Source: Trueperaceae bacterium | GTDB lineage: Bacteria > Deinococcota > Deinococci > Deinococcales > Trueperaceae | Direction: 5' to 3' | Assembly (NCBI GenBank): GCA_020354625.1 | Contig: CP070651.1 | Location: forward strand, 334,369 to 369,464 | Length of the DNA stretch: 35,096 bases | Shown here: in pieces, positions 28,539 through 31,101 of the stretch | How positions within the stretch are numbered: position 1 is the first letter of the stretch | How the letters are laid out: each line of letters opens with the position of its first letter | Made by a program: the position numbers and the translations under genes | The notes under the pieces: generated by a model | Told to the model about the DNA's origin: nothing | Database searches by the model: none | What the model saw: the letters and a program-made list of their open reading frames with translations, nothing else

Positions 28539-28599
28539 GCTGCCCTCGCTTAACGCTTTCTCGGCTCAAAACCCAAGGTCGGGGCGCGTCGGAGGGCGC

Positions 28600-28635
28600 A
28601 AAAAAAGACCGTGGGTTTCCTCGGGTCGCCCACGG
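28600..28635 (-). terminator. attenuator terminator in the ABC exporter leader
   Basis: CCGTGGG and CCCACGG (28609-28615, 28629-28635) form a stem, then TC and seven T residues (28600-28606) follow on the minus strand. With AAGG added on the 5' side and TCTT on the 3' side the stem reaches 11 bp with one G-U pair. It lies between the leader ORF and the first exporter gene, 62 bp before its ATG, so it must be read through for expression. Confidence 0.75.
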
Positions 28636-28658
28636 CCTTAACGGACTAGTTCAGTCGG

Positions 28659-28718
28659 TTACGAGCAGGCAGACCACTCCCCTGGAAAACCGTTGGAAGG
28701 AATGAGAACGATTGTCAT
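28659..28718 (-). CDS. putative 19-aa leader peptide of the ABC exporter operon
   Basis: The frame encodes MTIVLIPSNGFPGEWSACS and a TAA stop. It has a strong SD (AAAGGAG, eight bases before ATG) and lies 28 bases after the -10 box, in a leader otherwise without a gene. The terminator begins 23 bases after its stop. Two possible pairings involve it. GAGCAGG next to its SD (28723-28729) is complementary to CCTGCTC at its end (28663-28669). CCTTCCAACGG in codons 7-10 (28690-28700) can pair with CCGTTAAGG just before the terminator (28636-28644). These two interleave and so exclude each other in a simple fold. The layout fits a ribosome-sensing leader; translation is not proven. Confidence 0.6.
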   Translation of the reverse strand: MTIVLIPSNGFPGEWSACS

Positions 28719-28745
28719 CAAACCTGCTCCTTTCTACCGACTTTA

Positions 28746-28774
28746 ACCTTAGCGGCTGCCCCACAGTTTGTCAA
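28746..28774 (-). promoter_or_regulatory. promoter of the ABC exporter operon
   Basis: TTGACA (28769-28774) is followed by 17 bases and TAAGGT (28746-28751) on the minus strand. It starts 8 bp after the stop of the molybdoenzyme gene and gives a leader of about 200 bases before the first exporter ATG. Confidence 0.65.
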
Positions 28775-28782
28775 GAGATCGA

Positions 28783-31101
28783 TCAAGCTGGTTGATGAAC
28801 GCTCACCACCACCGACTTCGACGCCGGGGTGTTGCTCCCCTTCGCTACGCTGTCGATCGGCACCAACACGTTCGCCTCAGGGAAATAGGTCGCAACACAA
28901 CCCCGTGGGATCTGGTAGGGCACCACCACAAAACACGTAGCCGAACGTTCTCGGTCGTAGCTGCTCTTCAGATCGACCACCGCCCCCTCTTGGAGACCGG
29001 CAGACGCGATGTCCTCAGGGTGCATCATCACCACCCGCCGCTCGCTGTAGATCCCCCGGTAGCGGTCGTGAAGACCGTAGACAGTGGTGTTGTACTGATC
29101 GTGGCTGCGAATCGTCATCATCAGGTACTGCCCCTGCTCCAGACGTTGTTGCGGAACCGGATGAACCGTAAAGCGAGCCTTGCCTGAGGGCGTCTCGAAG
29201 ATACGCTGGCGTACTGGATTGGGAAGGGTGAAACCTTCCGACCGGCGAACCCGTCGATTGTAGTCTTCGGTGCCGGGAACGACTTTTGAGATCAGCTCAC
29301 GGATGCGGTCGTAGTCAGCGACCAGAGCATCCCAATCGATTGTGTCATCGGCGAGAGTCGCCTCGGCGAGCGCGGCCACGATCGACGGTTCACTCCTAAG
29401 TTGGGGCGAGGCCGGCAGCAGGTGCCCCTGAGATTGGTGAACGATCCCCATCGAGTTCTCCACGCTGACGAATTGCGGTCCGGTCAGCTGCTGGTCCCGC
29501 TCGCTCCGGCCGAGACACGGCAGAATCAGGGCGACCGCTCCGGTAACCAAGTGTGACCGGTTGAGCTTGGTCGACACCTGCACGCTAAGCCGGCAGTTCT
29601 GCAAGGCGGCAGCGGTATATTCGGTGTCGGGCGTGGCCGAGAGGAAGTTGCCACCCATGGCGAAAAACACCTCGATGCGCCCTTCGGTCATGGCCCGGAT
29701 AGCATTCACCGTATCGAGGCCGTGATGGCGAGGCGGATCGAAGTCGAAGGCGGCGCCGAGCCGGTCCAGAAAGGCTTCACTCGGCTTCTCCCAGATCCCC
29801 ATGGTTCGGTCCCCTTGGACATTGCTATGACCACGAACCGGACATACCCCAGCGCCGGGCTTGCCGATGCTCCCTTTGAGCAAGAGCAAGTTGACGATCT
29901 GTTGGATGTTGGCGACCGCATTTTCGTGTTGTGTCAGGCCCATGGCCCAACAGCAGATGATGCGCTCCGAACGCGCAATCCGTTCGGCAACGGGTTGAAG
30001 TTCTTCGCGTCTTAGGCCACTCTGCTGCTCGATCTGTGGCCAGTCCTCCTTGGAGAGATCTTCGACCAGCGCTTCGAAGCCTTCGGTATAGCTCTCGATG
30101 AACGCGTGATCGAACACCGTACCGGGCACCTCGGCCTCCAGCTCGAGCAAGAGCTTCATCAAGCCTTTGAACAGCGCCACGTCGCCGTTGATCCTGACGG
30201 GTAAGTGGAGATCGGCCAACGGGCTACCCTCACCGAGCAGCGTAGTGACCGCTCTGACCGGATGCAGGAAGTCTTGCGGGTTCTTGAAACGCGTAAGACC
30301 GGCCTCCTGCAAGGGGTTGATGCTGATGATGGTAGCGCCGGACGCTTTGGCTTGCTGCAGCGCACTGAGCATGCGCGGGTGGTTGGTGCCGGGATTCTGT
30401 CCGACGATCAGGATCACTTCAGCCCGTTCGAAATCCTCGAGCTGAACGGTTCCCTTCCCCACCCCGATGGTCTCTTTGAGCGCCACACCGCTCGATTCAT
30501 GGCACATATTCGAGCAATCAGGCAAGTTGTTGGTGCCGTAGCGCCGCACGAACAGCTGGTAGAGGAAGGCTGCCTCGTTGCTGGTACGGCCCGAGGTATA
30601 AAAGACGGCTTCGTCCGGCGACTTTAGCGCATTGAGCTCCCGGGCGATGAGGGCAAAGGCGTCTTCCCAAGCGACCGGCCGGTAATGATCGCTGCCCGCT
30701 TCCAGGATCAACGGCTCGGTCAAGCGGCCCTGCTTGCCCAACCAGTAATCCGACTGACGACTGAGTTCCTGGACAGACCAACGCTCGAAGAAGTCTTTGG
30801 TAAGCCGGCGCATCGTGGCCTCTTCCGCCACCGCTTTGGCACCGTTCTCGCAGAACTCGGCGACCGAACGGTCCCCTTCAGGATCGGGCCAGGCACAACC
30901 CTGACAGTCGAACCCACCCTTCTGGTTCAGACGGCTCAGCACCGAAAGACCCCGAAGCGGCCCCATCTCCTCGAGGATGTGCCTGGCAGTCGACACCACG
31001 GCAGGGAGTCCCGCAGACTCTTCTTTGGGCGCTCCGAACCGTAACCCCGTCAACGTTGCCGGCGGCTGAGCGAGGATCCCCTGGCGCTTCGACCTGTTCA
31101 C
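28783..31101 (-). CDS. FdhF/YdeP-family molybdopterin oxidoreductase
   Basis: This 772-residue enzyme matches the FdhF/YdeP branch of the DMSO-reductase superfamily (formate dehydrogenase alpha-like). The N-terminus has MGPLRGLSVL and NQKGGFDCQGCAWPDP; Cys66, Cys69 and Cys84 may bind an Fe-S centre. In DCSNMCHESSG, Cys200-His201 sits where formate dehydrogenases have the Mo-ligating Sec/Cys and catalytic His. PVRGHSNVQGDRTMG and a C-terminal cofactor-binding domain with RSHDQYNTTVYG are also typical. No signal peptide is seen, so it is cytoplasmic. Its GTG overlaps the fdhD stop by four bases (GTGA), a tight pairing with its maturation factor. No electron-transfer subunits are adjacent; formate is the natural first guess, but YdeP-type substrates are not settled. 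Confidence 0.92.
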   Translation of the reverse strand: MNRSKRQGILAQPPATLTGLRFGAPKEESAGLPAVVSTARHILEEMGPLRGLSVLSRLNQKGGFDCQGCAWPDPEGDRSVAEFCENGAKAVAEEATMRRLTKDFFERWSVQELSRQSDYWLGKQGRLTEPLILEAGSDHYRPVAWEDAFALIARELNALKSPDEAVFYTSGRTSNEAAFLYQLFVRRYGTNNLPDCSNMCHESSGVALKETIGVGKGTVQLEDFERAEVILIVGQNPGTNHPRMLSALQQAKASGATIISINPLQEAGLTRFKNPQDFLHPVRAVTTLLGEGSPLADLHLPVRINGDVALFKGLMKLLLELEAEVPGTVFDHAFIESYTEGFEALVEDLSKEDWPQIEQQSGLRREELQPVAERIARSERIICCWAMGLTQHENAVANIQQIVNLLLLKGSIGKPGAGVCPVRGHSNVQGDRTMGIWEKPSEAFLDRLGAAFDFDPPRHHGLDTVNAIRAMTEGRIEVFFAMGGNFLSATPDTEYTAAALQNCRLSVQVSTKLNRSHLVTGAVALILPCLGRSERDQQLTGPQFVSVENSMGIVHQSQGHLLPASPQLRSEPSIVAALAEATLADDTIDWDALVADYDRIRELISKVVPGTEDYNRRVRRSEGFTLPNPVRQRIFETPSGKARFTVHPVPQQRLEQGQYLMMTIRSHDQYNTTVYGLHDRYRGIYSERRVVMMHPEDIASAGLQEGAVVDLKSSYDRERSATCFVVVPYQIPRGCVATYFPEANVLVPIDSVAKGSNTPASKSVVVSVHQPA

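Follow-up and report, generated by a model that had tools for sequence, protein, structure and literature searches.

In the trp and his leaders of E. coli, four RNA segments pair in alternative ways and the position of the ribosome is the switch. The leader that we analysed appears to share this four-segment logic but has no regulatory codons and precedes an exporter operon.

Bacillus subtilis provided the first demonstrated case of a multidrug ABC exporter under ribosome-mediated attenuation (PMC4191407). In bmrB-bmrCD, three stem-loops lie within the 162-nt coding sequence (Reilman et al., 2014, PMC4191407). The Trueperaceae leader resembles this system in its short ORF and in its predicted terminator, antiterminator, and anti-antiterminator before a heterodimeric ABC exporter operon, and the signal proposed for both is slowed ribosomes and no particular amino acid (PMC4191407). 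However, the bmrB terminator is inside the coding sequence, whereas that of the Trueperaceae leader is past the stop codon. The putative Trueperaceae anti-antiterminator, unlike that of bmrB, uses the Shine-Dalgarno (SD) or start region, and we saw no sequence relation between the two leaders. Family-wide conservation, with SD-led and leaderless versions, is another difference. Because of the terminator placed past the stop codon, we regard the leader as probably working like bmrB and do not file it as the same element. Of the BmrCD-like layout in the original prediction, the order of ORF, terminator, and exporter is conserved, but the terminator is placed otherwise than in bmrB. The prediction also suggested independent evolution. 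An origin separate from bmrB is probable, though not proven, given the different terminator placement and the lack of leaders outside the family in our searches.

The PatAB attenuator of Streptococcus pneumoniae is likewise a predicted terminator/antiterminator/anti-antiterminator before an ABC exporter operon (PMC4319486). It has no described leader ORF, whereas the Trueperaceae leader has one. In the open literature searched, we found no description of a leader-peptide attenuator in Deinococcota, this one included, or of a leader peptide for Truepera, in line with the original remark that such control was not known to be described for this lineage. Neither Deinococcus nor Thermus appears in a 2010 attenuator survey.

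Organization of the leader and the exporter operon

The window, a stretch of 35,096 nucleotides, is part of a 4.29-Mb single-contig Trueperaceae genome (Deinococcota), whose named relatives are Truepera and Trueperaceae. The promoter, SD, ORF, stem, seven-U tract, and exporter gene of the original prediction were all found in their places on the minus strand (Table 1). The two exporter genes overlap by 4 nt on that strand.

Table 1. Features of the leader region and its flanking genes in the window
Feature	Position	Strand	Details
Promoter TTGACA-N17-TAAGGT	28746..28774	-	-35 TTGACA 28774-28769, 17-nt spacer, -10 TAAGGT 28751-28746
SD AAAGGAG and segment 1	28722..28733	-	SD 28733-28727; segment 1 GAGCAGGT 28729-28722, 5' strand of the putative anti-antiterminator
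Leader ORF	28659..28718	-	19 codons, MTIVLIPSNGFPGEWSACS, stop TAA
Segment 2	28663..28682	-	Conserved RNA motif GGGGAGTGGTCTGCC (28682-28668) and TGCTC
Segment 2 part GCCTGCTC	28670-28663	-	Predicted to pair with segment 1
Segment 2 parts GGTC and GCCTGC	28675-28672, 28670-28665	-	Predicted to pair with segment 3
Spacer hairpin UAAC.CGACU/AGUC.GUUA	28639..28661	-	Between segments 2 and 3; sequence not conserved
Segment 3 GTGGGCGACC	28624..28633	-	Apical terminator 5' arm and loop; motif partner in the putative antiterminator
Predicted intrinsic terminator	28600..28639	-	Stem 28639-28629/28615-28605, 13-nt loop, seven U 28606-28600
ABC exporter subunit 1, 590 aa	26766..28538	-	TMD and NBD, catalytic Glu (LDEPSS), degenerate signature LSAGE
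ABC exporter subunit 2, 594 aa	24985..26769	-	TMD and NBD, FDDLSS (Glu to Asp), canonical LSGGQ
YdeP-like molybdopterin oxidoreductase	ends at 28783	-	Upstream gene

Generic scans of the window missed both signals of the leader: the promoter, whose -10 matches TATAAT at 3/6 positions, and the terminator, whose loop exceeds 8 nt. The single-sequence fold of the window leader was unremarkable, slightly more stable than shuffled sequences (z = -1.6). The evidence for a leader switch from this one sequence is modest to weak, and the support comes from comparison.

The exporter consists of half-size subunits with asymmetric ATP sites. As originally predicted, it is of the heterodimeric type. Subunit 1 has the degenerate LSAGE and subunit 2 has Asp-Asp, and alignment showed the same asymmetry in the relatives checked. 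TM287/288, TmrAB, and EfrCD are heterodimeric exporters that likewise have two half-size subunits with asymmetric ATP sites, and TM_0288 was among the best half-size PDB matches. The Trueperaceae exporter differs from these in its leader, which was absent from the other Deinococcota families searched. It is likely a defence against translation inhibitors, and we know of no drug-response circuits in Trueperaceae organisms.

Terminator-like hairpins with T-runs also lie about 50-206 nt before the exporter homologues of L107, L110, L087, L075, and L111, which are from Paenibacillus, Alicyclobacillus, Anaerolineae, and Chloroflexi. These are possibly separate attenuators.

Conservation of the leader in Trueperaceae

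The comparison covered the 450 nt that precede the exporter orthologue in relatives, which are mostly MAGs. The same layout precedes the orthologous exporter in Trueperaceae genera with 56-70% protein identity, with both the ORF and the terminator kept in front of the exporter. A common plan was found in 25 leaders and the divergent L024, covering 12 genera. TTGACA with a 17-nt spacer is present in 23/23 leaders long enough to show them, and the -10 is nearly always TANNNT. TANNNT is the Deinococcota -10 motif, and leaderless genes in which the -10 adjoins the ORF are common in the phylum (PMC12340547). The start codon of the leader ORF is either 6-11 nt past the -10, apparently leaderless, as in about half of the genera and in the GC-rich ones, or behind an SD. 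The ORF has 19-41 codons, or 78 in L024. Near its end is the nucleotide motif GGGAG[A/T]GG[T/A]CTGCC, and the stop codon follows 3-17 nt past the motif in all clades (6 nt in the window). The terminator 5' arm CCGTGGG is invariant in 24 leaders, and A-U to G-C changes in the outer pairs of the stem are compensated between leaders.

Genome searches tie the leader to the exporter. Across 39 family genomes, the pattern motif-N25-55-CGTGGG matched 19 times and its reversed control once. A covariance model, only briefly calibrated, found the leader in 27 genomes with E-values down to 3e-15, although only at E = 0.002 in the divergent G010. Among the 111 phylum genomes, its matches outside the family, at E 0.02-0.08, were not above noise. 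The leader is present in 27 genomes and absent in 11/11 family genomes without the exporter (Fisher p = 7e-9), and in the sole exporter-bearing genome without it, the exporter is at a contig edge. CCGTGGG-N3-20-CCCACGG occurs once in the 4.29-Mb genome, and pattern and stem searches of the source genome found no further leader copies.

The window alone could suggest that the hairpin is the terminator of the oxidoreductase gene, with an unrelated promoter and a chance ORF behind it, since that gene ends 8 nt before the leader -35 on the same strand. The gene upstream of the leader varies by genus, however, and the oxidoreductase is common only to the nearest relative. The same leader is found in relatives whose upstream gene is another one, and the leader tracks the exporter. 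This variation of the neighbouring gene assigns the leader to the exporter; synteny refutes the upstream-terminator reading, which is hardly conceivable.

L024 (G010:C229) is an AT-rich divergent leader with a 78-codon ORF (MIKTRNQ...KGNLPIA), a terminator, and an 8-bp start/end helix, ATAGGCAA/TTGCCTAT, so that the architecture is preserved even where the motif sequence is not. In G009, contigs C89 and C120 carry identical copies of the exporter locus and leader, likely an assembly duplicate (9% contamination reported).

Pairing of the start region with the ORF end

In the window, GAGCAGGT can pair with GCCTGCTC (helix 1:2). Segment 1 lies around the SD or the start codon, and in most clades the helix is rebuilt with different letters: GGCAGACCAC with GTGGTCTGCC in g5, GGCAGACCTC with GAGGTCTGCC in L125, GGGCAGGCGCA with TGTGCCTGCTC in g2, and the start/end helix given above in L024. 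In the ten leaderless leaders tabulated, the base at the A/T position of the motif has its match in segment 1. With segment limits drawn by hand on sequences already seen, the 1:2 duplex energy against shuffles gave z = -3.8 in the window and Stouffer Z = -6.8 over 12 clades. Cognate partners were better than swapped ones, with 0/5000 permutations as good. Since the motif is nearly constant within clades, swapped-partner means in short gapless registers differed little there. By the shuffle test, a convincing helix is missing in g17 and g3 and weak in g14 and g15. The originally proposed pairing of the SD with the ORF end (GAGCAGG/CCTGCTC) is thereby borne out by its z-score in the window and by compensatory changes across clades. 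This comparison demonstrates the predicted 1:2 helix and the conserved parts of the leader.

Predicted antiterminator and terminator

In the window, segment 2 contributes GGTC and GCCTGC to the predicted antiterminator (helix 2:3); their partners in the terminator loop and 5' arm are GACC and GTGGGC. The counterparts are GAGTC/GACTC in g6, GTGCC/GGCAC in g2, and CTGCC/GGCAG in g8. For g12/g15 they are GAGGT/ACCTC versus GTGGTC/GACCAC, placed just before the terminator. The register shifts between clades. The cognate permutation gave p = 0.013, and comparison with shuffles gave Stouffer Z = -2.7 to -3.5, with values near zero in several clades and z = -0.3 in the window. A 2:3 antiterminator overlapping the ORF end is moderately supported by these comparisons. 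When more of the ORF is free, UUCC...GGUU.UCCA of the ORF can pair with the same terminator arm in the window, which may give the antiterminator an alternative form.

A different second pairing, CCTTCCAACGG/CCGTTAAGG, had been proposed. Its letters are present in the window, but it is no better than shuffles (z = -0.4) and is not conserved; CCGTTA pairs better with local TAAC. Over 23 leaders this pairing had no general signal against shuffles, and lower energies were confined to the GC-rich g12, which has a long ORF of high GC content. We rejected it as the antiterminator, since pairing of the motif with the 5' arm and loop of the terminator fits better.

We folded the window RNA under constraints at the stage when the terminator 3' arm is still missing. 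The free RNA formed mainly helix 1:2, with about 4 bp of helix 2:3; masking of the 5' part, with the first codons, gave 10 bp of 2:3, and a ribosome at the stop gave 0 bp of 2:3 and no 1:2 either. With the ribosome placed further along the ORF, the antiterminator lost strength beyond codon 10 and no longer formed by about codon 13. At equilibrium with the ORF start masked, the terminator still beats 2:3, with a terminator probability of 0.97 in the window. Since the terminator is the most stable form at equilibrium, read-through would have to be kinetic. Kinetic switching is the rule in other attenuators. A probability-based score for an occupied arm was uninformative because it also counted local pairs.

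The U-tract is good in the window and poor in GC-rich genera (GUUUC, GUUCG). Leaders of g8, g12, and g17 (e.g., L019, L015, L017, and L014) keep the stem with U-tracts such as GUUUC, GUUCG, and GUACU. Either termination is unusual in these GC-rich genomes or the hairpin works with a factor.

RNA conservation versus peptide conservation

The motif is read in the same frame by 10/12 genus-level clades, mostly as [R/G]-E-[R/W]-[S/T]-A. In g5 and three g8 genomes, the ATG is in another frame and the motif is read as GEDCL or GVVCPE, with the ORF end kept. Since the motif is read in different frames, it is the RNA rather than the peptide that is conserved, and a conserved leader peptide is rejected by this frame analysis. 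Outside the motif, the peptides are unrelated. No repeated regulatory codon or conserved peptide was found among the leader ORFs. For a stop codon in the 3-17 nt window, shuffled ORFs gave a chance product of about 4e-12 over 11 clades, a figure that serves as a guide and not as a formal p-value, with start codons chosen by position.

These data bear on nascent-peptide arrest, in which the leader peptide with a small molecule would stall the ribosome (ErmCL, MsrDL, or TnaC type), with ERSA(C) as the arrest motif. The shared frame speaks for it, and so does the RER of the leader peptides, which we take to resemble the Arg-X-Arg macrolide motif. However, the genomes with the other frame dispense with this peptide, a ribosome stalled at the motif would cover segment 2 and favour termination, and the motif A/T position covaries with the pairing partners. 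We consider arrest quite improbable.

An amino-acid attenuator of the trp/his type, sensing charged tRNA, would have the same 1:2, 2:3, and 3:4 architecture, and several genera have a Cys codon near the ORF end. This codon, however, is within the 1:2 helix and absent in GC-rich genera; there is no regulatory codon run, the codons before the motif are wholly different between genera, and the controlled operon encodes an exporter. This explanation is very unlikely.

Conservation of an RNA motif without its peptide, together with the putative status of the ORF, would also suit a riboswitch or protein-bound attenuator with an incidental ORF, or constitutive dampening by a leaky terminator. We find this improbable: start codons, leaderless or SD-led, and the stop position past the motif are kept in all clades, and no aptamer-like fold is conserved in the 5' part. 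Rfam gave no match at gathering score over the leader. A sub-threshold match to ncS54, a Burkholderia sRNA, covers the terminator hairpin (28576-28648, minus strand; 25.1 bits vs gathering 43); it is absent in six relatives and was taken as chance.

Proposed mechanism

The leader has hallmarks of an attenuator: in all clades a short ORF with start signals lies between the promoter and the hairpin, and a predicted terminator stands upstream of the first structural gene. We think it likely, judging from the comparison of leaders, that the 245 bp form a ribosome-mediated transcription attenuator, in which the short ORF would read ribosome position and stalling would open the exporter operon. RNA polymerase would start just upstream of the ORF. 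Segment 3 could pair either with segment 2 or with segment 4, the latter pairing (3:4) being the terminator stem. Without a ribosome, 1:2 would form and 3:4 would terminate transcription. During free translation, the ribosome would reach the stop codon and cover segment 2, and 3:4 would again terminate. An early stall or slow elongation in the ORF would cover segment 1 and leave segment 2 free; 2:3 could then form while segment 4 is still to be synthesized, and RNA polymerase would read on into the exporter operon.

We infer that the leader senses ribosome position and not peptide sequence, and that it is translated, terminates transcription, and is induced by drugs. Because of the exporter type and the bmrCD precedent, the natural signal would, by analogy, be stalling by ribosome-targeting antibiotics, the inducer class of the BmrCD type (lincomycin, erythromycin, and chloramphenicol). 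Conservation, compensatory changes, and co-occurrence with the exporter support the original interpretation as a BmrCD-like leader-ORF attenuator, and the comparative evidence for a predicted bmrB-like logic across a whole Deinococcota family is strong. The natural series of SD-led and leaderless leaders, two frames, and rebuilt helices would allow ribosome-position sensing to be separated from peptide effects.

A further, rather doubtful idea is that the leader ORF might have moved between SD-led and leaderless initiation, with the RNA switch rebuilt around a peptide-blind sensor. If true, exporter induction in leaderless genera would report 70S leaderless initiation and early elongation. Leaderless and SD-led genera would then differ in inducer spectrum, for instance with initiation inhibitors such as kasugamycin.

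In L012 (G014:C135), the leaderless start region is tandemly duplicated. The first copy, MIDRAPLHLTKLFPT, ends in ATGA, overlapping the second copy, MIERAPLHLTMLL..., which runs on through the motif, giving two coupled leader ORFs in one putative attenuator.
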